A stretch of DNA of 34,089 nt, from the NCBI GenBank assembly GCA_017449495.1, contig JAFTFO010000037.1, forward strand, positions 1 to 34,089. Direction: 5' to 3'. The notes under the pieces were generated by a model. That model saw only the letters and a list, made by a program, of their open reading frames with translations, ran no database searches and had not been told where the DNA came from. This DNA is from Prevotella sp. (GTDB lineage: Bacteria; Bacteroidota; Bacteroidia; Bacteroidales; Bacteroidaceae). How positions within the stretch are numbered: position 1 is the first letter of the stretch; every line of letters starts with the position of its first letter. Both the position numbers and the translations under genes were made by a program. This document shows, in pieces, positions 967 to 29,256 of this stretch.

Positions 967-2190
967 CTACCTTACTCCGGCATTGAGGTTCCGTCGGAGG
1001 AAGAATGACTTGGTGGCGAGAAAGAAGCAGGCCACGCCCAAGGCATTCACCACAACGACGGTCCAGAAGGCAGCGCTGTAGCTGATCAGCTCAGAGATGA
1101 CACCACCCACGAGGATGCCGAGTCCCATGCCGACATCCCACGAGATGAGGATGGTGGAGTTGGCCGTACCACGCTGGTTGTTCTGCGCCACGTTGATGGT
1201 CATGTTCTGGAAGGCTGGCCACATGTGGCCATTGCCCAAGCCAATCAGCAACGCAGAGCCGTAATAGCCTATAGCAGTGAGAAGTGAAGAGTGAAGAGTG
1301 AAGAATGAAGACAGCGTCGGCATTAATATAAATAAGGTATAGCCGACGAGCGAGATGACCATCCCCTCTCCGGCATTATGCGTCAAGCGCCCCTGTCGCA
1401 GAGCCCTACCACCTTGTAGACGACTTAGTATCAGTCCGATGGAGCAAAGCATGAAATAGGTGCCCGTGCCACCCGTGACACCCATCACCTCCTTGCTATA
1501 GATGGCCAGATAGTTGCTCAGCACACCGAAACTGAAACCAAAGGCAATCATGTTCACACCGAGCAGCCATCCCCGCAAGAGAAAGAAACGGTCGAGTGAC
1601 AGTTTCGACTTGTTGCGTACGATCTCCTTCTCTGGGAACTTCACTGTCGAATCGACCAGCCATCCGGCACAGGCCACGACGAGTGCGATCCAGAACAGCA
1701 ACTCGAAACTGTTAGTGTACTTATAGATAAAGATGCCGATGGTAGGTGCGATGGCCATCGAGAGATTGTTGCTCAGGCCATAGTATCCGATGCCCTCCGT
1801 TCGACGGCTGGAGGGCAACACGTCGATTGCCGCCGTTGAGTTCGCCACCGTCAGGGCCCCGAAGGGTCCGCCGTGTAGCGTTCGGACGATCGTAAATAAT
1901 AATAAGGTGGAAGCCGCGAGATAGCCTGCAAAGAAGATGGCAAAGGCACCGAAGCAGATCATCAGCACCGTGCGCCGGGGGAAGGAGTCGACAAAATAGC
2001 CACTGAACGGCCGGAAGAGTAGGGCGGTGATGGTATAGCCCGACAAGACGAGGCCGATGACATCCTTCGTGGCACAGAAGTGCTCACTCAGATAGAGCGG
2101 CAGCAGAGGTGTCAGCACGTAGAAGGCGAAGAACAGCGAGAAGTTCGCCGTCATCACCTTGATATAGTTCCCGTTCCAGAGCCGGTCCAT
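967..2190 (-). CDS. MFS transporter, substrate unknown
   Basis: A 407-residue polytopic inner-membrane protein with the length and hydrophobic pattern of a 12-helix major facilitator. An MFS-like motif A region (SGYFVDSFPRRTV) follows helix 2. It starts 9 bp after the GH9 stop codon on the same strand, so the two are probably co-transcribed from the promoter near 4700. That suggests uptake or efflux of a product of the GH9 enzyme or of the locus. No substrate can be read from the sequence. Residues around 294-305 (SFFTLHSSLL) are coded by a 7-bp tandem repeat, which looks like an in-frame insertion between two membrane segments. Confidence 0.85.
   Translation of the reverse strand: MDRLWNGNYIKVMTANFSLFFAFYVLTPLLPLYLSEHFCATKDVIGLVLSGYTITALLFRPFSGYFVDSFPRRTVLMICFGAFAIFFAGYLAASTLLLFTIVRTLHGGPFGALTVANSTAAIDVLPSSRRTEGIGYYGLSNNLSMAIAPTIGIFIYKYTNSFELLFWIALVVACAGWLVDSTVKFPEKEIVRNKSKLSLDRFFLLRGWLLGVNMIAFGFSFGVLSNYLAIYSKEVMGVTGGTGTYFMLCSIGLILSRLQGGRALRQGRLTHNAGEGMVISLVGYTLFILMPTLSSFFTLHSSLLTAIGYYGSALLIGLGNGHMWPAFQNMTINVAQNNQRGTANSTILISWDVGMGLGILVGGVISELISYSAAFWTVVVVNALGVACFFLATKSFFLRRNLNAGVR
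1277..1311. repeat. heptamer tandem repeat (GTGAAGA)x5 inside MFS gene
   Basis: Five consecutive 7-bp units: GTGAGAA, then GTGAAGA three times, then ATGAAGA. They lie within the coding frame of the MFS gene and are translated. Because 7 is not a multiple of 3, gain or loss of one unit would shift the frame. Confidence 0.85.
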
Positions 2191-4691: not shown

Positions 4692-4722
4692 CAAAGATAC
4701 AAAAAAAATTGATAATTGACAA
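4692..4722 (-). promoter_or_regulatory. promoter of GH9-MFS unit
   Basis: On the minus strand, TATCTTTG (4692-4699) matches the Bacteroidota -7 consensus TAnnTTTG. A TTG (4720-4722) lies 20 bp upstream, the normal -33 spacing. The predicted leader is only 10-17 nt. The -33 box lies inside the ATTGAYA heptamer repeat. Confidence 0.65.
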
Positions 4723-4740
4723 TTGATAATTGATAATTTA
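4708..4740. repeat. heptamer repeat ATTGAYA at gene junction
   Basis: Units ATTGATA, ATTGACA, ATTGATA, ATTGATA and a partial ATTTA follow with a strict 7-bp period. The last bases supply the TAA stop codon of the upstream six-hairpin gene (4738-4740), and one unit supplies the -33 TTG of the GH9 promoter. Confidence 0.85.
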
Positions 4741-7635
4741 TTGCAAGGTGATAGCCATCAGTCCGATGACGACATCATTGGAGAGGGTCCGTAAGGTTAG
4801 TGACCGCAGTCGTTTGTGCGGATTCAAGGGCATGATGAGCATCTGTCCAGCCCCTCCGGGAATCTCACGTCCATAGTCACCTCGAAGCGTGACAACCTCA
4901 CTCAGGTCACGACTGACATCACCAGTACTGAAGCAGACACGATAGGGACGAGGCTGTAAGGCTTGGAAGGCCTTGCCGTCGATATAGTAGTCTTGCTCGA
5001 TAGGACACCAGTTGTCGGGGTTCCTCAAGGCCAGGGTATCCGTCGTCGCGTCAGTGTAGGTCACCACGACCAGGCCGTTGTCGATACGACTCTGCATGTG
5101 GTTCGTCGAACCAGCCATCAGCAGACAGGCACACTCAGCCCTCCCCCTCAAGGGTATCACCACAGAGTCTGGATAGTTATCCCAGAGACTCGTATAGACG
5201 ATGTTTCGTCCCCGTTGGGGCGTTTTCATCGGCACGCCCGCCATCATGAAGACACCCTCTGATATCTTACTACGGAAGACAGAGTCGTTGATCTCTGCCG
5301 TCAACTGCGGATGACACCACTCGCCAATGCCCTGAAGGGGAATCTGGAGGGTCGTCGTCTGTGGACGGGGCGAGAGATACTGGTTTTTAAAAATATCGGT
5401 GACGTTAGCGTTAAAGTACTTCGCCATCTCCAAAGGTCTGAACGTCTTCGTTAAGTCCGGCTCGGCACAACCCGAATCATAGGGACTGTTCCCTGTGTGG
5501 GCAGCGAAGCGGAATAGTTGGGGACTGTCCCCATGATTCCTCCGTGACACTTCAATGACTTGGTGTTCCTCGCAGGTGCCCTCGGTATCACAGTATTGTC
5601 CATTACCGAGGTTCTGTCGCAGGACAATCTTCAATGGCTGACGGAAATGCTGGGTAATCTCATAGTGTTCTGCCCCATCCCTCCGTACATACTTATATTC
5701 TATATAGGGCGTCTTGACACTGGCACTATCCCACTCCTGAGGAAATCCGGGGCGGATGATACAGATGCCGTCAAGTGCCTGTGGGATGATACCGAAAAGT
5801 CCCTGCAACAGCGTACGACTGCTGATGCCGATACAGTCACCAAAATCCCGATAGCACTCACCACGTGCAGCATCGTAATGACTGATCTGTCCAAAGTTTG
5901 CCGGACTCTGTCCATAGTACATCTGATCGAGGATATTTGCCTTCATCAACCGATAAGCTTCGTCGGTCCGTCCTGCCTCGAAATAGGCCAGAGCCGTGTG
6001 CATCACCTCGGCAGCAGCCACATTATTGATACTCCATGAATAAGGCATCCAGTCACTGGTGGAGATCGTCTGATAGCCAGAGTCCTCTACACTCATGTGT
6101 GGTATGTATCGGTCAATATATTGTGTAGCTTTGTATGCCTGTTCAGGACTGCATGCGCCACAATCAATCGGCGTGTAGATACTCCACACAGCAGGATGAT
6201 CGTGTTTCCGTTTCAGACCCATCGCATCCTGATATTCTGCCCAGACGCCCTTATCTTCCAGCCACAGCCGTTCGTTCATAGCATGGAGGATGGCCTCAGC
6301 CTCATCACGGTAGGGCTTTGGATCCTTGCCGATGATCTCAGCTATTCTTGCAGCCAGACGGTTGCCGCGATAGTTATAGGCAGAACTGTGGGTGACGGCT
6401 CCACCGCTATAGTAGAGCGCATCACTGGCCCAGATACAGCAGTAGGCATCGTAAAGATGATCGCCGTCAGGATCGAAGTTGCGCTTCTCCCAGGCCAGAT
6501 GCGACTCCAGCACAGGCCACATCTTCCGCATATAAGCGGTATCGGCATCATACTGGAAATGCCACAACAGTTCGTCTATATAGTTCAGGTTCATGTCGTA
6601 ATGGTGCATCTGGTCGTTTCGCTCTGGATTACGACAGATGTAACCATTTGAGTACATCTGTGTGCCCCACTTCTTTTCGGCTCTGGCCATGTTGAGCGCA
6701 GCGTCCTGAGTGGGATGCGGAATAGTGGCAGGCACATTGGTTACCTGACTCTTGGCATAAGCATCGAAATGCCTGACGGCTCGGTCGTTCCAGCCTAACA
6801 CATCACCCAGATAGCCAGCCCGCCAACCTGCCAAAGGCATGCGCCAACCAATACAGCCATGCAGCCAAGTCTGTCCGTCCCAATCACCATCGGCAGCCAG
6901 CACTAATGCACTACCTAACGTATTGATATAAGGATCGGGGGTATCAAAACGGATGCGACTGGCTAATCCTTCAGCATGGTCTTTGGCTCGCTGATAATCG
7001 GCCATTCCTTGCTCTACACTCACCGATCTCACTTCATCCAAACAGACCTCCACATAGTCTTCACCCCCCAGCAACACTTGAACTTCCTGTAACGGACTCC
7101 CCGCTGCCTCAAGTACACCTGATGCGTCAGCCCCGATATCACCATTGCGATAGAGTTTCGGTTGTGCAATCTGACTTACCACGGCCTTCATCTGCATGAG
7201 CTGCGAAGACTGGAACTTCCATACGGCCGCCTCATCATCTGGCATCGCCACGACCTCGATGGTCAGTTGCGCCATGCCCCAACGTTTGTCTTGAAGCTGA
7301 TAGCGCCGCATGCCATCCTGATACCATGCCTTACAGTAATCAGTAGAGTCGAGGGGAACGCCATCTACCAGAAAGCGGATATTACGATGATGCCCTTTCT
7401 TCACAACAGCGAAGACAGGGCGATCGGAGGTATCCAGTCGCCAGTCGGTATGACTGCCATAGAGAGCCCTGGTATAACGGTTATTACCGTTTACAGAGAC
7501 AAAACCGCCCCCTGCACCTGGCTCATATTGCAAGGTGCGAGGGGCTGCTTCGCCTTTAGTCTGGGCGTTGGCGCCGTCGACGCCAATGAATACTAGGCAT
7601 GCTAGCCCGGCTAGTATATCTAGTATTCTCCTCAT
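4738..7635 (-). CDS. secreted six-hairpin glycosidase-like protein (DUF4450-like)
   Basis: 965 residues with a signal peptide (MRRILDILAGLACLVFIGVDGANA). The layout is an N-terminal beta-sandwich (about 28-230), an (alpha/alpha)6-barrel-like region (about 240-650; aromatic, acid-rich segments such as DGDWDGQTWLHGCIGWR and STSDWMPYSWSINN) and a C-terminal beta domain. This resembles the Bacteroidota DUF4450 proteins and, in fold, GH78-type six-hairpin glycosidases; the DUF4450 assignment is from memory. Its TAATG junction overlaps the aldolase stop by one base, so it is translationally coupled as the last gene of the rhamnose operon. That position suggests it releases L-rhamnose or acts on a rhamnose-containing glycan, but no activity is proven. 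Confidence 0.65.
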   Translation of the reverse strand: MRRILDILAGLACLVFIGVDGANAQTKGEAAPRTLQYEPGAGGGFVSVNGNNRYTRALYGSHTDWRLDTSDRPVFAVVKKGHHRNIRFLVDGVPLDSTDYCKAWYQDGMRRYQLQDKRWGMAQLTIEVVAMPDDEAAVWKFQSSQLMQMKAVVSQIAQPKLYRNGDIGADASGVLEAAGSPLQEVQVLLGGEDYVEVCLDEVRSVSVEQGMADYQRAKDHAEGLASRIRFDTPDPYINTLGSALVLAADGDWDGQTWLHGCIGWRMPLAGWRAGYLGDVLGWNDRAVRHFDAYAKSQVTNVPATIPHPTQDAALNMARAEKKWGTQMYSNGYICRNPERNDQMHHYDMNLNYIDELLWHFQYDADTAYMRKMWPVLESHLAWEKRNFDPDGDHLYDAYCCIWASDALYYSGGAVTHSSAYNYRGNRLAARIAEIIGKDPKPYRDEAEAILHAMNERLWLEDKGVWAEYQDAMGLKRKHDHPAVWSIYTPIDCGACSPEQAYKATQYIDRYIPHMSVEDSGYQTISTSDWMPYSWSINNVAAAEVMHTALAYFEAGRTDEAYRLMKANILDQMYYGQSPANFGQISHYDAARGECYRDFGDCIGISSRTLLQGLFGIIPQALDGICIIRPGFPQEWDSASVKTPYIEYKYVRRDGAEHYEITQHFRQPLKIVLRQNLGNGQYCDTEGTCEEHQVIEVSRRNHGDSPQLFRFAAHTGNSPYDSGCAEPDLTKTFRPLEMAKYFNANVTDIFKNQYLSPRPQTTTLQIPLQGIGEWCHPQLTAEINDSVFRSKISEGVFMMAGVPMKTPQRGRNIVYTSLWDNYPDSVVIPLRGRAECACLLMAGSTNHMQSRIDNGLVVVTYTDATTDTLALRNPDNWCPIEQDYYIDGKAFQALQPRPYRVCFSTGDVSRDLSEVVTLRGDYGREIPGGAGQMLIMPLNPHKRLRSLTLRTLSNDVVIGLMAITLQ

Positions 7636-8456
7636 TAGCAGGGTCGCTTCTTGGGAAGATTGAACACGTCCTGCACCTCCTTCATCTGCTCGGCTGTCAT
7701 GCCGTCAGGCTCACTGCCCATAGCCTTGGCACACATATAGATGTTAGCAGCCTTGCAGAGCACATCGGTCTGGTCGAAGGCATCCATGATATCTGTTCCA
7801 ACAGCCACCGTACCGTGCTTCTCCCACAGCACCACATCGTGGGTCTTGATCTGTTCGAGGGTAGCCTCAGCCAGTGCTACCGACGACGGGAGCGCATAAG
7901 GTACGATGCCGATGCCGAGGGGCGCGAACGCCAGCGTCTCGGGAATCATAGACCACAGTACACGTGTCATCTCATCCCCCTTCAGGAACCGCTGGATATG
8001 ACTCATGGCAACCAGCTCGATAGGATGCGTATGCAGGGTTGCCTTGTAGCAAGAACCCGTCTCCAGCAGATAGTTTTGCAGAGCCAGATGGGTGGGCAGC
8101 TCAGAAGTGGGCACGACAGGCTCGTCGGCTATGACCTCGTAGCTTGCACAGTCGTCACAGATACGGATGATTGATCCGTTCTGCATCGGCTCCTTAGCCA
8201 GGTCACGCATACGCTTACCTGTTCCCTTGCAATAGAAATACTTGCCTTTCAGTTGGGGCAACGTCATGCCTATCTGCTTGACGGGAGCGATGGCCGGCAT
8301 CGCCTTACACGCATCGTCCATATACTCGGTGACGTTGACAGTGATGTTACCGCCATTACGCTCTGCCCAACCTTTCTGCCAAAGATAATCTGTGACTTCG
8401 GCAATCTGATAAACGACCGCCTTCAACTCTTCGCGGCCTTCCAAAATACTCTTCAT
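7635..8456 (-). CDS. rhaD: L-rhamnulose-1-phosphate aldolase
   Basis: 273 residues, matching E. coli RhaD (274) rather than the shorter fuculose-1-phosphate aldolase FucA (about 215). It is a zinc-dependent class II aldolase that splits L-rhamnulose 1-phosphate into DHAP and L-lactaldehyde in the cytoplasm. Visible features are the glycine-rich phosphate-binding NGGNITVN, the acid in TSELPTHLAL, and the zinc histidines in LHTHPIEL and WEKHGTVAVG. It lies between the sugar transporter and the six-hairpin gene; its stop codon overlaps the next start by one base (TAATG). Confidence 0.93.
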   Translation of the reverse strand: MKSILEGREELKAVVYQIAEVTDYLWQKGWAERNGGNITVNVTEYMDDACKAMPAIAPVKQIGMTLPQLKGKYFYCKGTGKRMRDLAKEPMQNGSIIRICDDCASYEVIADEPVVPTSELPTHLALQNYLLETGSCYKATLHTHPIELVAMSHIQRFLKGDEMTRVLWSMIPETLAFAPLGIGIVPYALPSSVALAEATLEQIKTHDVVLWEKHGTVAVGTDIMDAFDQTDVLCKAANIYMCAKAMGSEPDGMTAEQMKEVQDVFNLPKKRPC

Positions 8457-8459
8457 ATT

Positions 8460-8487
8460 TTCTTAATTCTTAACTCTAAATCCTTAA
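8460..8487. repeat. heptamer repeat TTAAGAA between transporter and aldolase
   Basis: On the minus strand four 7-bp units run TTAAGGA, TTTAGAG, TTAAGAA, TTAAGAA and end four bases before the aldolase ATG. They make up practically the whole spacer between the two genes. Confidence 0.75.
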
Positions 8488-9849
8488 TTAAATATTGTCG
8501 CCATAACGTTCTTTGGTGATCTGATCCAAGGACTTGCCACGGGTATTGGGCATACCGATAAGTCCGATGATGAGTGAGGTGAGCAGCAGAGCCACCATAC
8601 AGTAGGCGGCTAAGGTGAACCCTTCGCCGTTATCACCATAGATAAAAGTGAATACCAGACCCCACACTGCCGAGAGTCCACGGACGATGAAGAACATCAG
8701 TCCCTGGGCACCAGCACGGAATTTAGCGGGGAACAGCTCCGAGCCCCACAAAGCGTAGAACACCTGAACAGAGCTACCGTTGTTAACACCCCAGAGGATG
8801 GTGAACACCCAGATGCCGGCAATGGTAGACACACCGCCGCCAATGATGAGGATCCAGGCGGTGAGGGCGGCAGCGAGTCCAAACACATAGAAGAAACGGT
8901 GAGCCACTTTGTCGACAAAGAACGAGATGATGAACGTGGTCACCACCACAAACACCCAACTGATGCAGCTCAGCATGTTGGCCGCCTCATTGCTCAGGCC
9001 ACCAGCAGTCTCATAGATATGCGGCATGAAGAAGCCCATCACACTGGCCACCAGGTTCCACGTGAGATAGATAGCAGCCAGGAAAGCGACGGTCTTCACG
9101 GCAATCCTATTGGTGAACAACAGCTTGATATTGTCCACGATTCCACTCTGGTCCTTTGCCTTATTGGCCGTACGCTCGGCTTCTGCCGCTTGGCTTGCCA
9201 AGAACTCCGCACTCTCTTCCAACTGTCGCTGGAGGTTCCATGCGATAAACGCCACGACAAAAAGCGTGAAGAACACGACACGTGAGCTGAACACCTCGAC
9301 AGCAGCCAGAGGCGCATCAGCACCGACGATGCTATGAGCCAATGACTCTACTGGTGCATAGAAATATCCCCCCGGTGCCAACAGCATGCCGAAGAGCAGG
9401 ATGACCATCGGGCCCACACCCCAGGACATCTGGGAGATACAGATGTTACGTCCACGATTGTTCACCTCCGAACTCTCGGAGATATACGTCCAGGAGGCTG
9501 GTACACCAATACCTACCGAGATGCCCGTAACCAAGAACCCAGCGAGCAGCATGGGAAAGTTCATGGCGAACATGACAATCAGCACGCCCGTCATATAAAC
9601 CAGCAGGTTGTAGGTGAAGATGAACTTACGTCCAAACTTATCAGCCAAGAATCCACCAATGATGGCACCGATGGCTGCACCCAAGGCATTGGCACTCAGG
9701 GCGTTCAGCCAACCAAGATGCATCTCGGACAGACCGAGGTAGTTCTGCCACAGCGTGACGCCACTGGCACCTGCCACGATGGCGCCAGCATCAAGATAGT
9801 TATTAAGAGATACCGCCAAGGTACTCTTCAGACTTCCACTTTTTGCCAT
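8488..9849 (-). CDS. MFS sugar transporter, probable L-rhamnose permease
   Basis: A 12-helix sugar-porter-type MFS protein of about 453 residues. I chose the start at 9849 (MAKSGSLKSTL), 4 bp after the isomerase stop; the upstream ATG at 9879 would overlap the isomerase by 26 bp. Motif-like stretches are GGFLADKFGRKFIF after helix 2 and PASWTYISESSEVNNRGRN, recalling the PESPR-type sugar-porter signature. It lies between the isomerase and the aldolase, so L-rhamnose uptake is the likely job (inference from context). It is unrelated to the RhaT family of E. coli. Confidence 0.85.
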   Translation of the reverse strand: MAKSGSLKSTLAVSLNNYLDAGAIVAGASGVTLWQNYLGLSEMHLGWLNALSANALGAAIGAIIGGFLADKFGRKFIFTYNLLVYMTGVLIVMFAMNFPMLLAGFLVTGISVGIGVPASWTYISESSEVNNRGRNICISQMSWGVGPMVILLFGMLLAPGGYFYAPVESLAHSIVGADAPLAAVEVFSSRVVFFTLFVVAFIAWNLQRQLEESAEFLASQAAEAERTANKAKDQSGIVDNIKLLFTNRIAVKTVAFLAAIYLTWNLVASVMGFFMPHIYETAGGLSNEAANMLSCISWVFVVVTTFIISFFVDKVAHRFFYVFGLAAALTAWILIIGGGVSTIAGIWVFTILWGVNNGSSVQVFYALWGSELFPAKFRAGAQGLMFFIVRGLSAVWGLVFTFIYGDNGEGFTLAAYCMVALLLTSLIIGLIGMPNTRGKSLDQITKERYGDNI

Positions 9850-9853
9850 ACGC

Positions 9854-11284
9854 TTATCTGCAAACCACGTCACACTCAATATTGAAAATCTTAGCCACCT
9901 TCAGGATGGTGTCGATGTGATGGCCCACGGCTGCTGCCATGTGGTGGGTAGGACCAGCCTCACTCCACTTGTTGACAAACTCACGGCAAGACAGAGAGAA
10001 CTTGGTACGCATATTGGTATCGCCAAAGGTGAAGATAGGACCATCCTCGTTCACGCCCTCGGCCACAACGAACTTGAACACGCCGTTCTTATCCTGAGTG
10101 ATGGCCAGATAGGTGACAGGCCCCGTTGGGGGATAGAACTGGGTAAGGTAACCACCACCAGCCTTTCCGTGGAACACGGGTACAATCTTCATAGTTGGCT
10201 TCTTGGCCTGTGAGATGTCGAAGTCGCCAGAGCCAGAGTGCCCGATGATGCAGATATCTTTGGGGAAGTCGATAGAGTACATCTCGGCCAGCGTGCCTGT
10301 ACCACTGATGGTCTTCAGGATTGACATGGCCATTGCCACCTTCATATCACCCTCGACGGCGCAGGCTGTGTGCTGTTTGATCAGCATGGAGAATGCAGGG
10401 ATGAGCATCGAGTCGAGCTTACCTGCCACGCCCTGGGCAAAACCGTCATAGTGAGAGGCGATCATCCCCAACTTCTCGTCCTTGACCCACTGTTCGAAGG
10501 CGACCACATACTTGGCCATATCCCAGACCTTCTCAATGGTACCGCCACCCTCGATGTCGAAGGTATCGAGAATATCCTGAGCCTTGGCTCGGATGGCAGC
10601 CTCATCGGTGATGTTATCGGCAATAGCCCACATCTTCTCCCAGTCGAACTGCTTGGTGTAGACGAACATACGATGATAGAGGTTTGTCTCGTCGATATAG
10701 AGGTCCATCATACCAGGGTACGGACGACCTATCTGGGCGATGTTCGTATCGCGGAAACGACGACGCACCTGGGCAGCACGGCACCAGTCCTCGATCTCTG
10801 CCTGACAGGTGGGGTCACCCCCTTCTACCACACCAGTAATCACTGCTGAGCGCTTTCCTGCACGATTCAGGTCGGCGACCATCTCACCGATGGCACCGCA
10901 GGCATACAGCTCACCCAGCCATGTGGGGATGTCAGTCTTGGCATAGTCAGGTGCCAACTTCTTCTGCAAGTTCACAATCACGACGGGCACGTCGAGGTCG
11001 CGAACGGCGGGTAACATATTATAAGATGTGCAGTAGGTCAGCATCTGCAGGATCACCAGGTCTACGTCGGCAGCGCGGAACTTATCGCCTGCGGCCATCG
11101 ACTGCTCCTTGGTAGTCACCATACCCCCGTCAACAATCTCAATGGTGTCGGGGAGCGTCTGCTTGAATGATTCATACTGTGCCTCGAACTCCGGAACGAG
11201 CTGAGGGAACTGTGGCAGGTATGCCTGTAAGGCAATAGAGAATACACCTACCCTTGCTTTGGTCTCAACTAATGGTTTACTCAT
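9854..11284 (-). CDS. AraA/FucI-family sugar isomerase in the rhamnose isomerase position
   Basis: 476 residues. The fold family is that of L-arabinose/L-fucose isomerases: an N-terminal Rossmann-like part (VDLVILQMLTYCTSYNMLPAVRDLDVPVVIVNLQ) and a metal site that aligns by eye with AraA. AVEGDMKVAMAM corresponds to AraA GAEGDWKTA, LAEMYSIDF to the second acidic motif, and IIGHSGSGDFD and the C-terminal GHHIDT to histidine motifs. It is not the TIM-barrel RhaA/RhaI. Its neighbours are the rhamnulokinase (26 bp upstream) and the rhamnose transporter and aldolase downstream. It therefore probably converts L-rhamnose to L-rhamnulose as a non-orthologous substitute; the substrate is inferred. It could instead act on another deoxysugar or pentose. 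Confidence 0.82.
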   Translation of the reverse strand: MSKPLVETKARVGVFSIALQAYLPQFPQLVPEFEAQYESFKQTLPDTIEIVDGGMVTTKEQSMAAGDKFRAADVDLVILQMLTYCTSYNMLPAVRDLDVPVVIVNLQKKLAPDYAKTDIPTWLGELYACGAIGEMVADLNRAGKRSAVITGVVEGGDPTCQAEIEDWCRAAQVRRRFRDTNIAQIGRPYPGMMDLYIDETNLYHRMFVYTKQFDWEKMWAIADNITDEAAIRAKAQDILDTFDIEGGGTIEKVWDMAKYVVAFEQWVKDEKLGMIASHYDGFAQGVAGKLDSMLIPAFSMLIKQHTACAVEGDMKVAMAMSILKTISGTGTLAEMYSIDFPKDICIIGHSGSGDFDISQAKKPTMKIVPVFHGKAGGGYLTQFYPPTGPVTYLAITQDKNGVFKFVVAEGVNEDGPIFTFGDTNMRTKFSLSCREFVNKWSEAGPTHHMAAAVGHHIDTILKVAKIFNIECDVVCR

Positions 11285-14085: not shown

Positions 14086-14113
14086 CTTTTTACTTTTTTA
14101 CCTTTTTACCTTT
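14086..14113. repeat. same octamer-type repeat in the spacer before GH28
   Basis: On the minus strand the whole spacer between rhaM and the GH28 start consists of GGTAAAAA-type units (AAAGGTAAAAAGG onward). The A/G-rich run ends directly at the ATG, so it also occupies the translation initiation region. Confidence 0.85.
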
Positions 14114-14430
14114 CATTTCAGATAAAACACTTCCTGTAACGGCACTGTCACGGGTGAGTTGTCCGGATTCACCTCCATGATATCAGCCATCATGTCCCAC
14201 CATTTCTGGGTGATGGGGTCCACGTGCGCTGTATCCTGCGAGTTCCCTTCGCCTGAACATTCCTGATAGCCAAACAAGATGTTGGTCTCCCGATCCCAGA
14301 AGATACTGTAGTTACTCACTCCGCTGTCTTTGATCATCTTCACCAGTTCCGGCCAGATGGCAGCATGCCTCTTCTCATATTCCTTCTCGCAGCCAGCCTT
14401 CAGCTGCATCTTAAATGCAAATCGTCTCAT
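14113..14430 (-). CDS. rhaM: L-rhamnose mutarotase
   Basis: 105 residues, the size of E. coli YiiL/RhaM (104). It interconverts the alpha and beta anomers of L-rhamnose so that the isomerase and kinase steps are not limiting. Family features seen are the N-terminal RRFAFKMQLKAG, the catalytic-histidine helix EYEKRHAAIWPEL, the YSIFWDRETNILFGY strand, and a tryptophan pair in TQKWWDMMADIM. Second gene of the rhamnose operon. Spacers on both sides are built from GGTAAAAA-type repeats. This gene is the strongest marker that the operon is for L-rhamnose. Confidence 0.95.
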   Translation of the reverse strand: MRRFAFKMQLKAGCEKEYEKRHAAIWPELVKMIKDSGVSNYSIFWDRETNILFGYQECSGEGNSQDTAHVDPITQKWWDMMADIMEVNPDNSPVTVPLQEVFYLK

Positions 14431-14472
14431 CTTTACCTTTTCACCTTTTTACTTTTTCACTTTTTTACCTTC
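14431..14472. repeat. octamer-type repeat spanning reductase 3' end and rhaM leader
   Basis: On the minus strand units of 7-9 bp related to GGTAAAAA (GGTAAAAAAG, TGAAAAAG, TAAAAAGG, TGAAAAGG) run from inside the last codons of the reductase to the rhaM ATG. The repeat codes for the final residues VKK and supplies the TGA stop codon of the reductase. Confidence 0.85.
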
Positions 14473-15520: not shown

Positions 15521-15557
15521 TTTGCATAAAAGCCCCCTCATTTCTACCTACATTTGC
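15521..15557 (+). promoter_or_regulatory. promoter of GH28-GH115 pair
   Basis: TACATTTGC (15549-15557) matches TAnnTTTG. A TTTG at 15521-15524 lies 24 bp upstream, slightly longer than the usual spacing. The leader to the ATG at 15586 would be about 20 nt. Confidence 0.5.
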
Positions 15558-16980: not shown

Positions 16981-19337
16981 AAAGAACAGCATTATTATTG
17001 TCCGCAGCGATGATGGCAATCAGCCTGAGCGCCGAAGTAGTATGGTTCAATGGCAAGTCGCCCATAACCTTCAGTCTGCCCAAGAAGGTGGAGCCTGTGG
17101 TACTGATAGCCCTCGACATGTGGAAAAGCGACATGCAGCAGGTAACCGGTATGCAGCCTGTAGTCTCTTCCAAGCCTACAATTAAAATCATACAAGGCAA
17201 TGGTCCTGCCGACGGCTTCCGCATATACACCAAAGACGGTCAGATCATCGTTGAGGGCAACAATGGCCGTGGTATGGCCTACGGCATCCTTGAACTCTCA
17301 CGCCTGGCTGGTGTGTCGCCCTGGATATGGTGGGGCGACGTGGTGCCGGAGAAGAAGCCACGACTGGTTCTCGACAGCAGTTTTACCACCGAACAGCGTC
17401 CAAGCGTAGAATACCGCGGCATCTTCCTGAACGATGAGGACTGGAGCCTGCGCCACTGGAGCTACACGACGTTTGAGCCTGCTCCTTTCGGACATATCGG
17501 CCCCCAGACCTATAAGAAGATTTTCCAGTTGTTGCTCCGCCTGAGAGCCAATGCCATCTGGCCGGGCATGCATACAGGAACGACGGCCTTTTTCAAGATA
17601 CCTGGCGCCAAGGCGATGGCCGACTCATGCGGGATCGTGATCGGCACCTCGCACTGTGAGCCATTACTGAGGAATAATGTAGACGAGTGGGATGTTAAGG
17701 AGCGGGGTGCCTTCAACTATCGCACCAACCGCGAGACGGTGCAACAGTACTGGATAGAACGTCTGCAGGAGGTCAGGAAGTCGAAGGACAATATGTTTAC
17801 CATCGGCATGCGGGGCATCCATGACAGTTCGATGGAGGGCTACAAGACAGACGAAGAGAAGTTCGAGGGTCTGCAACAGGTCATCAACGACCAACAGGAA
17901 CTGCTGCGTCAGTATATCGGCGACCCGTCGAAGCAGATGCAGGTGTTCGTGCCCTACAAGGAGGTGCTGCAGCTCTATGAGAAAGGCCTCCAAGTGCCTG
18001 ACTATGTCACGCTGATGTGGTGCGACGATAACTACGGCTATATGACCCGTCTCTCTGATGCCAAGGAGCAACAGCGGTCTGGCGGAGGCGGTGTCTATTA
18101 TCATCTCTCCTATTGGGGTCGTCCGCACGACTATCTCTGGCTGACGACCACCCAGCCCGGACTCATCTATAACGAGATGCGCCAGGCCTACGACCACAAC
18201 GTCCGTAAGCTGTGGATCGTCAATGTTCACGACCCGAAGGTGGCAGGCTACGACCTGGAACTTTTCCTCGACATGGCTTGGAATATCGATGGCGTCAGTG
18301 GTGAGACGCTGAACGACCACTATCGCGCCTGGCTCTGCCGTCAGTTCGGACCACAGGCGGGCGAGCAGCTGTACCCCGTCATGCATGAGTTCTTCCGTCT
18401 CTGTGGCGAACGCCGACCCGAGTTTATGGGCTGGAATCAGGTAGAGGTAGACAAGCGGCTTTACGACAGGGGCCTCTCGCAAGTTCGCAACAGCTGTTGG
18501 ACCGATGCAGAGCGTGACGATTTCCTGGCACGTTTCATCAACATCAGTCAGGAGGTGGAGGAGATAGGTAAGACAGTACGTCCTGAGTTGTCCGATGCCT
18601 ATTTCGCAGCCATCCAATATCCCGTCCAGGTCTCCGCCGCCCATGCCGTCAAGATGCTCGAAGCCGAGAAAGCCCGACTCATGGCCAATGGCAGCACCAT
18701 GGGAGACATGTTCGAGAACCAGACCAAAATACAACAGTCAGTGAACCGGAGTTTCGCAGCCTATAAACGAATCCATGAGTTGACCGATTATTATAATAAT
18801 AAGGTGGCAGGTGGTAAGTGGAAGAACCTGATGTGCGACCACCCCCGTGACCTTCCCGTCTTCTGGGCTCCGCTGACACCCACTGTGCCCAATGAGGCAG
18901 TATCCTACGACACGCTCTTGTACACCCCTCACTCCTCACTCCACAATTGTCAATTGTCCACACCCCTCACCCCTCACGATGCGAAACCCATCCAGATGCT
19001 CGGCCACTCCATGAATGCCCTGGCTCTGCCCAAAGGCGGCCAAGTAACATATCAATTCACCGTCGACAAGGCCAGTGACTACAGTCTGTGGACCGCCATG
19101 ATCCCCACTCAACCCAATGATAACGGTGATATCCGTTACAGCGTTACCATCGACGACGGTGAGCCGACCGTTTATACCCTCAAAGAACCATTCCGCTCCG
19201 AACAGTGGAAGCAGAACGTGCTTCGAGGTCAGGCCCTGCGCGAGAAGAAGGAACATCTGTCAGAAGGGCCCCACCGACTGACAATCAAGGCCATCGACGA
19301 CCACATCGTTATAGACCAATGGTGGCTGTCCCACTAA
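16977..19337 (+). CDS. GH115 alpha-glucuronidase-like protein, short form
   Basis: 786 residues with a signal peptide (MKRTALLLSAAMMAISLSA). GH115 enzymes remove alpha-1,2-linked (4-O-methyl-)glucuronic acid from xylan-type glycans. Recognisable segments shared with the second GH115 here are SPWIWWGDV, VEYRGIFLNDED, NAIWPGMH, MVIGTSHCE-like GTSHCEPLLRNN, GMRGIHDSSMEG and VYYHLSYWGRPHDYLW. It is about 150 residues shorter than the 942-residue paralogue: a middle beta domain after the catalytic part is missing. At that point a 55-bp stretch of repeats (residues about 649-667, TPHSSLHNCQLSTPLTPH) forms the linker to the last domain. Coupled to the GH28 gene by an ATGA overlap. Confidence 0.9.
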   Translation: MKRTALLLSAAMMAISLSAEVVWFNGKSPITFSLPKKVEPVVLIALDMWKSDMQQVTGMQPVVSSKPTIKIIQGNGPADGFRIYTKDGQIIVEGNNGRGMAYGILELSRLAGVSPWIWWGDVVPEKKPRLVLDSSFTTEQRPSVEYRGIFLNDEDWSLRHWSYTTFEPAPFGHIGPQTYKKIFQLLLRLRANAIWPGMHTGTTAFFKIPGAKAMADSCGIVIGTSHCEPLLRNNVDEWDVKERGAFNYRTNRETVQQYWIERLQEVRKSKDNMFTIGMRGIHDSSMEGYKTDEEKFEGLQQVINDQQELLRQYIGDPSKQMQVFVPYKEVLQLYEKGLQVPDYVTLMWCDDNYGYMTRLSDAKEQQRSGGGGVYYHLSYWGRPHDYLWLTTTQPGLIYNEMRQAYDHNVRKLWIVNVHDPKVAGYDLELFLDMAWNIDGVSGETLNDHYRAWLCRQFGPQAGEQLYPVMHEFFRLCGERRPEFMGWNQVEVDKRLYDRGLSQVRNSCWTDAERDDFLARFINISQEVEEIGKTVRPELSDAYFAAIQYPVQVSAAHAVKMLEAEKARLMANGSTMGDMFENQTKIQQSVNRSFAAYKRIHELTDYYNNKVAGGKWKNLMCDHPRDLPVFWAPLTPTVPNEAVSYDTLLYTPHSSLHNCQLSTPLTPHDAKPIQMLGHSMNALALPKGGQVTYQFTVDKASDYSLWTAMIPTQPNDNGDIRYSVTIDDGEPTVYTLKEPFRSEQWKQNVLRGQALREKKEHLSEGPHRLTIKAIDDHIVIDQWWLSH
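18923..18977. repeat. composite heptamer repeat inside GH115 gene
   Basis: 7-bp units CACCCCT, CACTCCT, CACTCCA, then CA, then ATTGTCA and ATTGTCC, then CACCCCT, CACCCCT, CAC. Two near-identical 17-bp CACCCCTCAC-type blocks (18923-18939 and 18961-18977) flank a core related to the repeats at 4708 and 27679. It is translated in frame as a linker. Confidence 0.85.
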
Positions 19338-23602: not shown

Positions 23603-26431
23603 TTAAATACCTATACATATTTCCTGTAGTACAATGCCCGGATCGAGCAAGTATATCCTGAGTGGTTGTCTGCCACATAATCCTGCGGGGATACGGATGC
23701 TGCGGGAAGCATAGCCGCGCAGCACATTCCAGCGCCACTCGGCAGTGAAGTCTGCGGCGTGGATGGAGAACACCTGTGGCTCGGCATCACCCAACTGAAC
23801 GGCGTAGCGGGCATCGCGACCCTCGTAGACGTGGAGGGTAGGCAACGTGCGGACTTCTATTGTCTTGTCATGCTCGCAGAGGCTGAGGTCGAACGCCACA
23901 GAGGGTGCCTCCTGGAGATGCGCTGGCTGGTAGGAGGGCGTATCAAACGGCTGTACTGTGATGCCGTCCGTATAGCCCAGGCCCTCTATCCGCTCGATGT
24001 GTCCCTCGCGGCTGTCATGCTTCTGGTTGAAGGCACTGGCGGCTATGCGCAGCCGTGGCTCAGCAGCAAACGGTGGCCAGAGGCCGAGGAAGATGCAGTC
24101 GATGCGGGCATCGGGCTTCACTTCGCTGATAGACAGGTGGTTGATACCTTTCTTCAGATGGAGCGTGCCCACCTGATTCCACATCGGGCCGACGTAGGGG
24201 GCATGCCAGACATTGTTGACGGGGGTGGCGGAGGCTTCGAAGGTTTGGTCTTCTGTCGTGACACGACAGAACACATTATCCTCCGGCGCCTTGGAGAAGT
24301 TGCGGATGGGCGTCAGAGCCTCTATCCAAAGGGGGACGTCGGTATCCTGCTCCGCCTCGATGATGGCACGTTCACAGGAGGTGGCATCGGCCACAGAGAG
24401 GAACATCGGCTGAGGCATCGCCCTGACGGCATCAATCGTCTCAGGCGAAGCAATCGGTGGATCAATCTTATCAGAACGGAACCAATGGTAGGGCTGCCAG
24501 TTGAAGAACTCTCGCCACTTGGCTTCGCCAATGTCCTCATTATAGTGGCGCGTCCACTCGTTCAGCTCTGCGAACATCTGCTTGACACGACTGGCATCGG
24601 CCATCGCCCCGAGACTGTCGAGACGGGAGGCGCAGACCATACTGCGACGGGCCAGCAACTGATACTCATTGAGCATCGCGGCCCCACGGATGGGATAACT
24701 GACGAGTTCGAAATAGGCATCCTGCAAGTCAGCAGGGATACGGGAAGCCAGCAGTTCGGCTTCGGTCTCCAGGCTCCTTGCCTCGCTCAGTCGCTCAGCC
24801 ACCTGTTGCTCCGTGTAGTTGACGAACCAGACGTGCGCATCCTTACCACCCGCCTGTAGTCGGTAGTAGCGCGCCATCAAGTCGGCAATATCCTGAGCCA
24901 CTGCTGGGCCGAAAGTCTTCTCTGCCCAATACTTGATATAATTGTGTGCTTCAGTGGGCCGCCAGCGGTTGATATCCCAGGCCAAGTCCATCACGAAGGA
25001 CAATTCCTTCTCTGCAGGCTTGATGTCGCCCACATTAAAGACCCAGATTTTCCTTGCACCAAAGGTATAGGCCTTCGTCAGTTCTGTGGATAGGAAGGCG
25101 GGGGACAGCGGACTGAGCCATATCCAACTGGCGGGGTCGCCGTGATACGACAGGTGGTAGTAGATACCAGCCCCGCCTTTTCGCTTCTGTTCCTCAGGAT
25201 TCGAGAGATTACGGCAGTAGCCATGTTTGTCGTCGCTCCAGAGCAGCGTCACATCATCGGGTATTTGCAGACCATGATGATAGGCATCGAGCACCTCCTC
25301 GTAGGTACAGAGTACCTGCGGAATCTCTTCTAAAGGCTTGTCGATGTTACGGCGCAGCATGTCGCGCTGGTCGTCGATAGCCTGTTGCATCAGTCTGACA
25401 CGCTCCTCAGTGCTGTTGGCACCTTCCATCGGGTAGTCGTGGATGCCGCGCAGACCGAGGGTATAGGTATTCTCATACTGACCGTTGGTCTTGACACGCT
25501 CTTCCCAGTAGTCCTGCATCGTCTGGCGGTTGGTGATGTAGTTAAAGTCGCCCAAGCCTTCCTCTCCCTTGGCCTGCGCCTGCTGATTCACAGCTTTCCA
25601 CTCGCCCTCATTGTTGCGCAGCATCTGTTCACAGTGCGACGAGCCCATCACGATGGCATAGCGGTCGGCCAGTCGGGCATTCTCCGGGTCGGCATTAAAA
25701 GCCTGAGTACCGGGGTGCATAGCTGGCCACAGGTAGTTGGCCTTCAGTCGAAGCAGCAACTCAAACACCCGCCGGTAGGTCTCTGGCCCCACCCTGCCGT
25801 GTTGCCTCTCCGCCCAACGGGCCCAGCCACCGAAACGCTCGTCATTGATAAAAATGCCACGATATTGCACAGCCGGCTCTCCTTGCACGAAGGTGCCAGA
25901 CTCCACAAACAGCGCCTCTTTATGAGCAGGTGTCACGTCGGCCCACCAGTACCACGGTGAGACGCCGATGGTCTCTGAAAGTGAAGTCAGTCCGAAGGCC
26001 GTACCACGACGGTCACTGCCGATAACGAGCAGCAGTGAGGCGTGGGTCTTTGGGTGCTCAGCAGTCTTAATGATGAACGACTCCCATTTTCCTCGGATGC
26101 TACTGACATCTATCTTCAGGCTCTTCACCAACCCATCAATCAGCCGACTCTTACCCAAAGTACCCGCCACGACGGAAGTTCCTTTCGGCTGCCCAAGACT
26201 GACGATGGGGTGCAGCCCTGTCACCCGCTCCACATCGTCAGCCAACATCTGGGCTGTAATACCCACCACGGGATAGTCACGTTCATCGGTACATATAGTG
26301 GCCACATTCTTTACAGTCACCATCGGGAAGGCACCACTCTGTGCTTTGTCGGTCACCATAGGAAGTCCTGCGGCCTGGACTGATAGTACGGCCATCAAGT
26401 CCACAAAAGAAATCAGCAGTTTTCTCTTCAT
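23603..26431 (-). CDS. GH115 alpha-glucuronidase-like protein, long form
   Basis: 942 residues, the normal size for GH115, with a signal peptide (MKRKLLISFVDLMAVLSVQA). Shared family segments: SPWYWWADVTPAHK, VQYRGIFINDERFGGWARW, NYLWPAMHPGTQAF, VMGSSHCEQMLRNN, LGLRGIHDYPMEG, LLWSDDKHGYCRNLS and IYYHLSYHGDPASWIWLSP. After the catalytic part come two beta domains (about 650-790 and 800-942). It should remove alpha-linked glucuronosyl side groups in the periplasm. Its ATG overlaps the GH2 stop codon (ATGA), so it is translated together with the GH2 enzyme. Identity to the short GH115 is low outside the motifs, so they are probably not recent duplicates. Confidence 0.92.
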   Translation of the reverse strand: MKRKLLISFVDLMAVLSVQAAGLPMVTDKAQSGAFPMVTVKNVATICTDERDYPVVGITAQMLADDVERVTGLHPIVSLGQPKGTSVVAGTLGKSRLIDGLVKSLKIDVSSIRGKWESFIIKTAEHPKTHASLLLVIGSDRRGTAFGLTSLSETIGVSPWYWWADVTPAHKEALFVESGTFVQGEPAVQYRGIFINDERFGGWARWAERQHGRVGPETYRRVFELLLRLKANYLWPAMHPGTQAFNADPENARLADRYAIVMGSSHCEQMLRNNEGEWKAVNQQAQAKGEEGLGDFNYITNRQTMQDYWEERVKTNGQYENTYTLGLRGIHDYPMEGANSTEERVRLMQQAIDDQRDMLRRNIDKPLEEIPQVLCTYEEVLDAYHHGLQIPDDVTLLWSDDKHGYCRNLSNPEEQKRKGGAGIYYHLSYHGDPASWIWLSPLSPAFLSTELTKAYTFGARKIWVFNVGDIKPAEKELSFVMDLAWDINRWRPTEAHNYIKYWAEKTFGPAVAQDIADLMARYYRLQAGGKDAHVWFVNYTEQQVAERLSEARSLETEAELLASRIPADLQDAYFELVSYPIRGAAMLNEYQLLARRSMVCASRLDSLGAMADASRVKQMFAELNEWTRHYNEDIGEAKWREFFNWQPYHWFRSDKIDPPIASPETIDAVRAMPQPMFLSVADATSCERAIIEAEQDTDVPLWIEALTPIRNFSKAPEDNVFCRVTTEDQTFEASATPVNNVWHAPYVGPMWNQVGTLHLKKGINHLSISEVKPDARIDCIFLGLWPPFAAEPRLRIAASAFNQKHDSREGHIERIEGLGYTDGITVQPFDTPSYQPAHLQEAPSVAFDLSLCEHDKTIEVRTLPTLHVYEGRDARYAVQLGDAEPQVFSIHAADFTAEWRWNVLRGYASRSIRIPAGLCGRQPLRIYLLDPGIVLQEICIGI

Positions 26432-29256
26432 TTTTCAATTATATCATCGAACTTCATCAGATAAGTGTCGTATTGCGTCTCAAAGGGACGGAAGGGGGCT
26501 GGGATGCTACTTGGAGCGTCGAACAGCTCTTTCACCAGCAGAGGCAGTCTGTCGGCATCTGTACGATAGAGCCAGAACTCACCGCCGACAGTCCCCACCT
26601 CCCTGGCGACGATAGGGAAGGCCGTGCGGGTGAACTTCGGTCCCTCGCCGGCGACGGCAGCGTTATAGGTGAGCACAATGCCACGGTCGGTCTGCTCGAA
26701 ACTGACATCCCCGTTCCTGCAGACGAGTAACAGTCCGTTACCCTCTTTATCTGTCAGCCAGGCAGCATCCACACCCCTGCGGTTCCCCTCGAAGTAGAGG
26801 TCACCCTGCTGCAAGGCCCAGAAGCCATAGCGCCCGGCCCGATAACGCCCCGGGTAGGTGGGCAGATAGCCATTGCCTATCCACTGCACACGGTCGATCT
26901 GCTGGTCAAGGAGGAAGGCGATGCCGAGTTCGGAGAGGAACGTGTCGGTGGTGTCGGGTGTCAGCGAGAAGGTGAAGTGCGTGACATTGCCAACTGTCTC
27001 TTGCTTAATGTCCGTCTTGAGGGATCCTGCATGAGTGCCATCCTCTGACAGTGGCAGCAGATACCTTTTCAGTCGCTTGTCGCCAACCCTCAGCGTCTCT
27101 GCCAGTGTCGCTTTACGACCAGCACGGACGAGCATTCCATCCTGTACCAGCTCCATCGGATTGGCGGTCTTCTCTGTCAGTCCTGTAAGCAGTCTTGGTG
27201 TGATGGCAACAGGATTCACAGGGATGGACTGACGAAGGAACGTATGGCCCTGATCGTCAGTCATCTCAAGGCGGAGCAGGCTGATCCGTGAGGCATCAGG
27301 AGACGTTGGCAATACTAACGTATACGGGACGGAGGCATGAGGGGCGCAATCGGGGGAGAAGGCACCTCGTGCTATCGTGTCACGGTCTTCAGTATAGGTC
27401 CAACCGAAGGTGACGTTATCCTTCAGATTGAGGAAGTCATAGCGATTCGTGATGTTCAGTAACAGTGTGCCGTCGGCTGTCGTCAAGATGCTGTCACTTA
27501 CGAAGGCACGGGCATAGTTGTGCTGCAACTCGTAGTAGTTCGGCAGCGGCGTACGGTCGGCATAGAGCAGTCCGTCTGTGCCTTTATTGCCGCACATCTC
27601 GAAGCCCTCCGTCGGCGACGTATACACCTTCTCCTCGTAACCGTAATTCAATTGATAATTATTGCCATGCGCAGCCAAATTGTCCATTGTCAATTGTCCA
27701 TTATCAATTTTAAATGGCATTCCCTGATCCACCCATTCCCAGACCGAGCCACCGGCAATCCACGGTGTACGCTCAATAATCTCCCATTGGCGGTCGTGGT
27801 CTTCAAGTGAGACGCCAAGCGTATGGCAGTACTCCGTGAAGATGACGGGACGGTCAGCCCTCTGATAGAAGTCGGCAATCTGAGAAGTAGTAGGATAATG
27901 AGGCGTATAGATATCAGCCACTTTGGGGAAGTCATAGTTGAAACGACGGAAGTAGCTGCCCACCTGTGGATAGCAGACGGGGCGTGAGGTGTCGAGTTCC
28001 GTCTTCACATACTCGCCCAACTTGACGCAGATATCTGTCAGCGGGTTCTCATTGCCTAAGCTCCAGATGAGTACGGAGGCATGGTTCTTGTCGCGGCGGA
28101 TGGTGGCCTGTGCCCGCTGCTGCAGCACGGGATAGAATTCTTCTTTATACAGATTCTTGTCGCCATAGCCGAAAGGCACCTCGTCGATGATGTAGAAGCC
28201 CAACGAGTCGGCCAGCTCATAGAAACGCGGCTCACGGGGGTAGTGCGAAGTGCGGATATAGTTCACCGAGGCCTCCTTCATCAGTCTCATGTCCTTCAGT
28301 GTCAGCTCGTCGCTGATCACCTTCACCGTCTTCGGATCTGTGCTGTGACAGGTGACACCACGGAACTTGATGGGCTGTCCGTTCAGCTTAATCACCTTGC
28401 CATCTATCGTCAGTTCGCGGAAGCCGAACTTGTGTTCGAAAGTCTGGATCACCTTACCCTTCTGCATCAGCTTCGTGCGCAGGGTATATAAATAAGGTGT
28501 CTCTGCCGTCCACAGATGCGGATGCTCCACCATCGTATTGCCCACTACCCTTCCCTGAGCATCGAGTATCTCGTGGGCAACGGTCGTCTGCTTATTGCCA
28601 TTGGCAATCTTCACGTCGACGCTCACCTCACCCGTATTCTTGGGCTTGATAGTCAGGTCGGCGAGGTGTGTCTTCGGCACAGCCATCAGTGTCACATCAC
28701 GGAAGATGCCGTTGGGCGCCCAGTCGTCGTTATAGTCGAAGTCGCTGCCAGGGAACTGTGAGATCACCCGCATCGCCAACTCCTGTCTACTGTCTACTGA
28801 CTTCAAATAGTCCGTGATATCAAAGAGTGCCGTATTATAGCCCGACCGCCAAGCGCCGACCGCCTGACCGTTGATCCACAGGTCGTAGCCATAGAGTACA
28901 CCGTCGAAACGAAGCACGATGCGCTGTCCCCGCCATTCCCGAGGCACGGAGAATGTCGTGCGGTAGTAGCCCGTCAGCGCGTTCGGACTGTCGTATTTCG
29001 GTTTGCAGAAGCCGTAGGCCTCCCAGCATCCCGGCACGGGGATCTTCCCCCACGACCCGTCCTCGGCAGGCACGGCTGTATCTTCACTGATACCGTTCAT
29101 CACTTTCAGACTCCACTCGCCGTTCAGGCTACGTTTCATCTGAGGGTCAGTCACTGGCAGGATGCCCTGGAAGGCATCGCGCACCTGAGCGTTTACTATC
29201 GAAACAGAAAAAAGCGCAATAGCGCAAAAGACGGTTCTTAGTCTGTTCATCATCAT
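26428..29256 (-). CDS. secreted GH2 beta-galactosidase-like enzyme
   Basis: About 942 residues from the MMMNRL start. The longer frame to 29286 would begin upstream of the -7 box at 29261-29268, so I reject it. Signal peptide: NRLRTVFCAIALFSVSIVNA. Domains run: GH2 sugar-binding domain (about 40-195), Ig-like domain (about 195-285), TIM barrel (about 285-600) and a C-terminal Bgal_small-like domain. The acid/base Glu is in IWSLGNENP (about residue 403) and the nucleophile Glu in IFTEYCHTLGVS (about 475). Retaining beta-galactosidase is the likeliest activity, but GH2 also includes beta-glucuronidases and others. Residues about 517-526 (KIDNGQLTMDN) come from a heptamer repeat inserted in frame next to the barrel. 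First gene of a two-gene unit with GH115. Confidence 0.88.
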   Translation of the reverse strand: MMMNRLRTVFCAIALFSVSIVNAQVRDAFQGILPVTDPQMKRSLNGEWSLKVMNGISEDTAVPAEDGSWGKIPVPGCWEAYGFCKPKYDSPNALTGYYRTTFSVPREWRGQRIVLRFDGVLYGYDLWINGQAVGAWRSGYNTALFDITDYLKSVDSRQELAMRVISQFPGSDFDYNDDWAPNGIFRDVTLMAVPKTHLADLTIKPKNTGEVSVDVKIANGNKQTTVAHEILDAQGRVVGNTMVEHPHLWTAETPYLYTLRTKLMQKGKVIQTFEHKFGFRELTIDGKVIKLNGQPIKFRGVTCHSTDPKTVKVISDELTLKDMRLMKEASVNYIRTSHYPREPRFYELADSLGFYIIDEVPFGYGDKNLYKEEFYPVLQQRAQATIRRDKNHASVLIWSLGNENPLTDICVKLGEYVKTELDTSRPVCYPQVGSYFRRFNYDFPKVADIYTPHYPTTSQIADFYQRADRPVIFTEYCHTLGVSLEDHDRQWEIIERTPWIAGGSVWEWVDQGMPFKIDNGQLTMDNLAAHGNNYQLNYGYEEKVYTSPTEGFEMCGNKGTDGLLYADRTPLPNYYELQHNYARAFVSDSILTTADGTLLLNITNRYDFLNLKDNVTFGWTYTEDRDTIARGAFSPDCAPHASVPYTLVLPTSPDASRISLLRLEMTDDQGHTFLRQSIPVNPVAITPRLLTGLTEKTANPMELVQDGMLVRAGRKATLAETLRVGDKRLKRYLLPLSEDGTHAGSLKTDIKQETVGNVTHFTFSLTPDTTDTFLSELGIAFLLDQQIDRVQWIGNGYLPTYPGRYRAGRYGFWALQQGDLYFEGNRRGVDAAWLTDKEGNGLLLVCRNGDVSFEQTDRGIVLTYNAAVAGEGPKFTRTAFPIVAREVGTVGGEFWLYRTDADRLPLLVKELFDAPSSIPAPFRPFETQYDTYLMKFDDIIEK
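27679..27711. repeat. heptamer repeat ATTGTCC/ATTGTCA inside GH2 gene
   Basis: Units ATTGTCC, ATTGTCA, ATTGTCC, ATTATCA and a partial ATTTT follow with a strict 7-bp period. It is translated in frame as IDNGQLTMDN. The sequence is closely related to the intergenic repeat at 4708-4740 and the core at 18945-18958. A partial copy (CAATTGATAATT) lies 20-30 bp upstream at 27649-27660. Confidence 0.85.

Follow-up and report, generated by a model that had tools for sequence, protein, structure and literature searches.

We found that the tandem heptamer arrays of a Prevotella genome are probably the arms, in most cases single leftovers, of hairpin-shaped mobile elements, which apparently form a class undescribed so far. 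These elements have a recurrent anatomy, are statistically linked with the gene of a small four-helix-bundle protein, family PF05635 (23S_rRNA_IVP, here IVP), are dispersed in many species and show a fast turnover of both unit and occupancy; at one homologous junction they were found in full, mini and single-array states. The window, i.e. the whole stretch of 34,089 nucleotides that was analysed, is contig C4 of a host assembly of 2.24 Mb, which is 68% complete.

Five sites of the window carry heptamer arrays. A CTTCACT-type array (pyrimidine sense; 1276-1311, reverse strand; TRF 1283-1311, 4.1 copies, 95%) lies in frame in the MFS transporter gene 967-2190 and falls in a loop of the protein. 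A TAATTGA/TCAATTA array (4707-4738, reverse strand; TRF 4.6 copies, 92%) lies directly after the stop of gene 4738-7635, and its 32-nt string was found again at L014:6609 and L015:18823. A degenerate TTAAGRR array (8457-8487, reverse strand; TRF 8460-8489, 4.3 copies, 73%) fills the junction between the genes of a sugar MFS transporter (8488-9879) and of rhamnulose-1-phosphate aldolase (7635-8456). The array at 18923-18977 (forward strand, TRF), in frame in a GH115 gene (16977-19337), is a mosaic of CACTCCT, CAATTGT and CACCCCT units; its TRF blocks are 18923-18942, 18944-18958 and 18961-18977, with the register kept at the first block junction and shifted by 3 nt at the second. Finally, a TGACAAT-type array (27678-27711, reverse strand; TRF 27679-27702, 3.4 copies, 88%), also scored by TRF as period 14 at 27678-27709, is in frame in a GH2 gene (26428-29286). 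An earlier note on this DNA had described these five sites as strict 7-bp repeats, three of them translated in frame and two at gene junctions. All five sites do have period 7 by TRF and in the sequence, with the reservations that 8460-8487 is degenerate and that 18923-18977 is a mosaic in which CACCCCT is one of three units.

The same note overlooked three period-8 and two period-10 arrays of the window, all detected by TRF. The octamer arrays lie on the reverse strand. The one at 14007-14039, whose sense is TTTTTACC, codes for the hydrophobic peptide VLPLYLFTF at the N-terminus of a GH28 protein (12799-14085), which by inspection we read as a signal peptide. The other two have the purine-rich strand in the direction of the genes: the array at 14086-14113 fills the gap between 12799-14085 and 14113-14430, and that at 14435-14471 is at the junction of 14113-14430 and 14457-15527. 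The decamer arrays (both forward strand) belong to a mini-element at the right end of the window. It consists of a purine-rich arm, (AGAAGATAGA)n, at 33954-33998, a middle part at 33999-34070, and a pyrimidine-rich inverted arm at 34071-34089, ended by the contig end. The middle part comprises the inner border AAGGACAATAG, a short core and the inverted border with the start of the second arm, GTATTGTCTTCTATCTTC, with a small hairpin nested in it. VapE/VirE-like genes are present at both contig ends (2-775 and 31745-33871) and by eye appear to be related copies; of the two, only 31745-33871 gave a VapE-like domain match. Contigs probably break in this VapE/VirE-like repeat.

The frequency of such arrays was measured in 712,979 bases of the host genome, in 41 pieces, with order-2 Markov sequence as the null. 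Period-7 arrays numbered 65 against 0.0 expected, period-8 arrays 30 against 0.33 and period-10 arrays 10 against 0.33, while for period 5 none was found (0.33 expected). This census is conservative, because the window arrays at 8460-8487 and 27679 fall below its period-7 threshold. The earlier note was right that different units share one period, and the excess is large. Periods 21 and 22 were also over-represented in the sample (16 vs. 0.67 and 27 vs. 0.0). In loci of 80 named relatives, 39 period-7 arrays were counted against 0, spread over 24 of the 80 loci. Arrays of the type (TTCACTY)3 occur in 17 of 198 Bacteroidota genomes and the permuted unit in 2; the reversed control is uninformative here and matched widely, since TTCACTT is the same read backwards. 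Two Bacteroidota genomes, G398 and G367, contain 268 and 145 matches to (TTCACTY)3.

The host genome has two PF05635 copies over the cut-off, both outside the census sample. Each is placed between inverted arrays, with units AAACTGT and AGAAGATAGA, respectively, and both units recur elsewhere in the genome. The association was assessed with an inverted-pair test, in which a gene passes when arrays of the same period, inverted and with a unit mismatch of at most one third, are found within 350 nt on both sides. PF05635 was detected in 52 of 60 genus genomes (E≤1e-3; 47 over the cut-off) and in 0 of 14 named control genomes. The genus set contained 31 loci (the best match per genome with a locus and the second host copy, many matches being left out), four of which were too short; 22 of the other 27 passed, 14 of them with at most one unit mismatch in the reported pair, and 5 failed, as compared to 3 passing out of 3000 random positions in the host sample. 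Across Bacteroidota, PF05635 was present in 37 of 61 genomes at E≤1e-20, and 12 of 27 loci tested (of 29) passed, 10 with no more than one mismatch in the reported pair. The 15 failing loci comprised 5 without array, 2 with unlike arrays on both sides and 8 with an array on one side only.

Plasmids gave a similar picture. PF05635 was matched by 27 plasmid records; 15 of the 20 listed were examined, 12 of these 15 being cyanobacterial, and 13 passed, all with period 7 (10 with one unit mismatch or none in the reported pair). The passing plasmids are nine Nostocales records, Euhalothece, Planktothrix, Pseudanabaena and Treponema, and at the other two loci, from Bernardetia and Monoglobus, inverted arrays were recognised by eye. 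In particular, plasmids from the genera Nostoc, Aulosira, Dolichospermum, Euhalothece, Planktothrix and Pseudanabaena have the IVP gene within inverted heptamer arrays; the resemblance to heptanucleotide repeats of cyanobacteria that the earlier note proposed is, on these plasmids, more than superficial. Random positions passed in 1 of 1500 cases in named Prevotellaceae loci, which stand in for the phylum genomes themselves, and in 0 of 1500 on three Nostoc plasmid stretches. Fisher's p was 6e-48 for the genus, 7e-22 for the phylum and 3e-30 for the plasmids, with loci taken as independent, some plasmid loci being related copies (L343, L345). As annotated, the plasmid IVP genes L350, L353, L354 and L357 adjoin helicase, hsdS/hsdR, DISARM drmD and cas1 genes.

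The space between the arms, with a median of 435 nt over 47 passing loci, can hold little beyond the IVP gene. The IVP protein matches PDB 2rld (E 2e-36); the elements showed neither a recombinase nor a reverse transcriptase. For several array units, such as TCAATTA, no IVP element with that unit was found. Among 60 other genomes, all 5 with (TTCACTY)3 arrays belong to the 9 that have at least 7 IVP copies (p 2e-5), 4 of the 5 coming from one family.

A second line of evidence is given by fixed sequences at the array ends. CTTCACT-type arrays of several unrelated genes start with GGYAGCAAAT or a near form. When up to 2 mismatches were allowed, the head pattern GGYAGCAAAYTYTTCACT occurred 15 times in the host and its reversed control not at all; with 1 mismatch it was present in 30 of 60 genus genomes, in up to 82 copies, the reversed control giving 1 match in all. 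In CTTCACT-type MFS loops the head GGCGGCAGC is exact in 5 of 11 and near in 3 of 11; the window's own array at 1276 does not have it. Many of the listed GGYAGCAAAYTYTTCACT places are divergent pairs. In 18 of these, selected for divergent heads and read together with one other stretch, the purine array was followed by AATTTGCTACCGC or a variant close to it, then by the core, and then by GCGGTAGCAAATT (or again a close variant) and the pyrimidine array. Their cores vary; those of L278 and L279 (about 350-400 nt) contain a PF05635 gene, with a TIGR02436 match also in L279. More generally, the borders recur beside part of the arrays.

These observations bear on the possibility that each array arises locally when replication slips, preferably by 7 bp, the IVP link being secondary. 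A heptamer excess in many bacteria is reported, and a polymerase-footprint idea for the 7-bp step is cited, in the accessible part of PMC4692102. Slippage followed by drift also suits the arrays of the host sample, which are graded mixtures of related units within one register, and a DsbD-like gene in which L047 and L183 differ in unit at equal length and register. However, slippage predicts neither a fixed head, nor like arrays inverted across a 0.4-kb gene, nor the match of a mini-element to an IVP element in both arm and inner border, and we consider it an improbable origin. As the whole story we reject it on account of the fixed head and the inverted pairs, and we reject a process restricted to period 7 on account of arms of 8-, 10-, 11- and 12-mers.

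Alternatively, arrays or mini-hairpins might come first, the IVP genes being cassettes that insert into them. In fact, none of 18 inverted pairs present in 1.76 Mb of sampled loci encloses an IVP gene (the core measures 19-171 nt in 16 of the 18), and gene-less forms are therefore much commoner. Nevertheless, insertion into one pre-existing array would give flanks on the same strand, and we reject it because the flanks are inverted; the proposal becomes workable only if the target is an already paired hairpin. The comparison of 17 junction loci described below is suggestive on this point, the loci being too distant for it to be decisive. For us it is just as doubtful as slippage, and we favour arrays that derive from the arms of complete elements.

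The junction at 8457-8487 was compared by means of the aldolase gene in the 22 closest of 30 loci, 17 of which, window included, have the transporter upstream; classes were assigned by eye. At this junction L377 has an IVP gene between two AGAGGTG arms (L307 in the genus set is the same place), L367 has an IVP gene beside which one arm is clear, L365 has a mini-element of 152 nt whose borders are ATTATGATTAC-like, and L373 has a single arm with the AGAGGTG unit. A TTAAGAA-type array is found in three of the remaining loci, the window among them, and an octamer array in several; one has another hairpin, and the others show nothing clear. The genes in L367 and L377 were identified as IVP, so that the window array 8460-8487 sits where others hold a full element. 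GC-rich palindromic inserts (CCCTCCC...GGGAGGG and similar) were seen in array loops or junctions at L120:8087, L121:5360, L054:6830 and the L380 junction; they are perhaps another dispersed hairpin family.

The mini-element at the right end of the window resembles a gene-bearing form: 33962-34011 matches the arm end and border of the IVP element L309 (50 nt, 94%). A string nearly equal to the stretch 33999-34070 occurs in L028 and, inverted, in L047. When folded as RNA, four chosen mini-elements gave -55 to -61 kcal/mol, with z of -12.3, -11.7, -6.7 and -5.2; the value for 33954-34089 was -57.5 kcal/mol (z -6.7). No insertion event was observed, and no target-site duplication was evident by eye in the element flanks, for which there was no close empty site to compare.

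Homologous sites in relatives show how fast units and occupancy change. The transporter with the array at 1276-1311 was found at E≤1e-140 in 118 of 249 genus genomes, which gave 91 loci with the loop readable in 90, window included. A lag-7 array is present in 22 of the 90 (again with the window), with six different units; 41 loops are short, without insert, and 26 have other inserts. With L198 added by hand, the units are CTTCACT in 11, TTCAATG, TCAATTR and CTCACCT in 3 each, and three single types. The tree of the 90 sequences, with the loop excluded and nine states, requires at least 30 state changes (shuffled mean 43), and one supported clade of four rows (100/87) contains three units. CTTCACT-type loops are barely clustered on it (10 changes vs. 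a shuffled mean of 10.6). The loop types form two register classes; because offset 0 is best in just 9 of 21 type pairs (4.4 expected), in-place unit conversion and re-insertion are not separated. In a second loop of the same transporter, L158 carries an entire mini-element that keeps the frame, and we read the inserts of others in that loop as reduced or one-armed forms.

At the GH115 site an array is present in 3 of 81 sequences (window included), with a different unit in each; the best 80 of 454 relatives are almost all Prevotella and near kin, many from the rumen. At the GH2 site it is present in 4 of 15 (window included), the other three being of AAGAGTG/AAAAGTG type. By eye, the GH2 arrays of the four species have a common register, and in our reading the unit that would put TGA in frame is altered in each. 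Among the 166 homologous array pairs listed, many of which come from the MFS loop, 31 have the same unit class. In the orthologues examined the array peptides are without conservation, and the objection that they are conserved peptides, foreseen in the earlier note, does not hold. The DsbD-like gene of L047 has three arrays with different units, at 13728, 14386 and 14883 (N-terminus, linker and loop).

The orientation of arrays was read with respect to genes called by a simple longest-ORF rule. Where codirectional genes are separated by 100 bp or less, the sense strand of the array is the purine-rich one in 22 vs. 5 cases in the host and, with 2 even, in 9 vs. 0 in relatives; the pooled p is 1e-5. 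Within genes the pyrimidine strand is sense in 28 vs. 13 cases (host) and 29 vs. 18 (relatives), and several octamer or heptamer arrays code for the hydrophobic part of N-termini, which we read as signal peptides. The bias at short gaps and a unit consensus, KTGANRR, that exceeds shuffled units would agree with arrays selected as regulatory sites, i.e. translation leaders or protein-binding sites; the Beggiatoaceae TAACTGA repeats are interpreted as possible regulator-binding sites in the available text of PMC4679880. Against this, one and the same site differs in unit and occupancy from one close species to another, many arrays are inside enzymes, and gaps over 100 bp show a weaker preference for one strand (9 vs. 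3 in the host and 10 vs. 4 in relatives). Selection for regulation is unlikely as the origin of the arrays, if slightly less so than the two alternatives discussed above, and regulation can be a secondary use of arrays. The KTGANRR grammar is real and may reflect which arms survive.

The elements may be summarised by the following model. A full element consists of a purine-rich array of a 7-12 nt unit (most often 7-mers, also 8-, 10-, 11- and 12-mers), a short border on its inner side, some 0.4 kb of core with a single PF05635 gene and, on the far side, a similar border inverted, followed by the same or a similar array inverted and thus pyrimidine-rich. It may insert in the form of DNA or RNA with paired arms, to which the IVP protein would bind, and with the help of host enzymes. 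Loss of the gene would give mini-elements with short cores, and further loss of one arm, presumably by deletion, the single array, which is the form at most sites; indeed, most arrays are single. Arms would survive where the strand that is read is harmless: between genes this would be the purine-rich strand, acting as a leader; inside genes, the pyrimidine strand with its few stops; and in signal peptides, a strand that gives hydrophobic codons. Re-insertion, or another arm serving as the template for copying, could change a unit in place. The common generator that the earlier note supposed in this lineage is, in our reading, kept as a common factor, in the form of a mobile-element family rather than a 7-bp copying mechanism and not confined to the lineage.

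We regard as evenly balanced the wider proposal that these elements are shared by Bacteroidota, Cyanobacteriota and other phyla, move without a transposase, driven by IVP, and are the source of the cyanobacterial STRRs and of much of the heptamer content of Bacteroidota, with leftover arms put to use as gene leaders, as linkers in proteins and as signal peptides. Heptanucleotide repeats and the widespread PF05635 protein are both unexplained in the literature consulted. Once the two are connected, each can be put to the test, with the repeats as arms of a single class of element and the protein as the likely agent of that class. Elements in frame in enzymes and transporters, forming hydrophobic N-termini and linkers, would represent mobile DNA that supplies protein segments. 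For annotation, array peptides need no longer be read as conserved protein features.

No link between IVP and tandem repeats was found in titles and abstract openings of the open PMC literature, nor in the available portions of PMC4060949, PMC3542288 and PMC4853749, and the elements fit none of the known classes tested here. STRRs are dispersed 7-nt tandem units of several unit families (see also PMC4692102). They resemble the present arrays in being dispersed 7-nt tandem units, and such arrays flank the IVP gene on Nostocales plasmids; we would tentatively equate the plasmid arrays with classical STRRs. However, the host of the window is a Prevotella, 8-12-mers occur too, and STRRs are described as repeats only, no link with an IVP gene being found in the literature searched. 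The TAACTGA repeats of Guaymas Maribeggiatoa (MacGregor, 2015) are also heptamer arrays, located mostly just upstream of starts, and occur in Cyanobacteria and five Bacteroidetes as well, with horizontal spread suspected by a mechanism that was not evident; unlike here, the sections of that paper at hand (PMC4679880) mention one indirect repeat and neither PF05635 nor inverted pairs around a gene.

Slippage-derived simple repeats differ in that part of our arrays has a head motif and recurrent borders beyond the repeat. MITE or REP-like sequences are similar as regards the many short, gene-less inverted-repeat copies beside a gene-bearing form, whereas here the arms consist of short units in tandem, no transposase gene is seen in the form that bears a gene, and no target duplication is defined. 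The nearest kin are the intervening sequences (IVSs) of 23S rRNA. Their ends form a hairpin, and their excision from the RNA by RNase III involves no ligation. IVP may be akin to the Avd protein of diversity-generating retroelements. The longer IVSs share with our elements one PF05635/TIGR02436 gene, and both have complementary ends forming a stem, as seen here in the inverted arrays and the four mini-element folds. According to the accessible text of PMC11270868, the function of the IVP domain is uncharacterised; the domain is known from IVSs, and these are cut by RNase III. The elements read here differ in lying between or inside protein genes and not in the 23S rRNA gene, and in having arms made of short-unit tandem arrays and many gene-less copies; with these differences, the element could be taken as an IVS outside rRNA.
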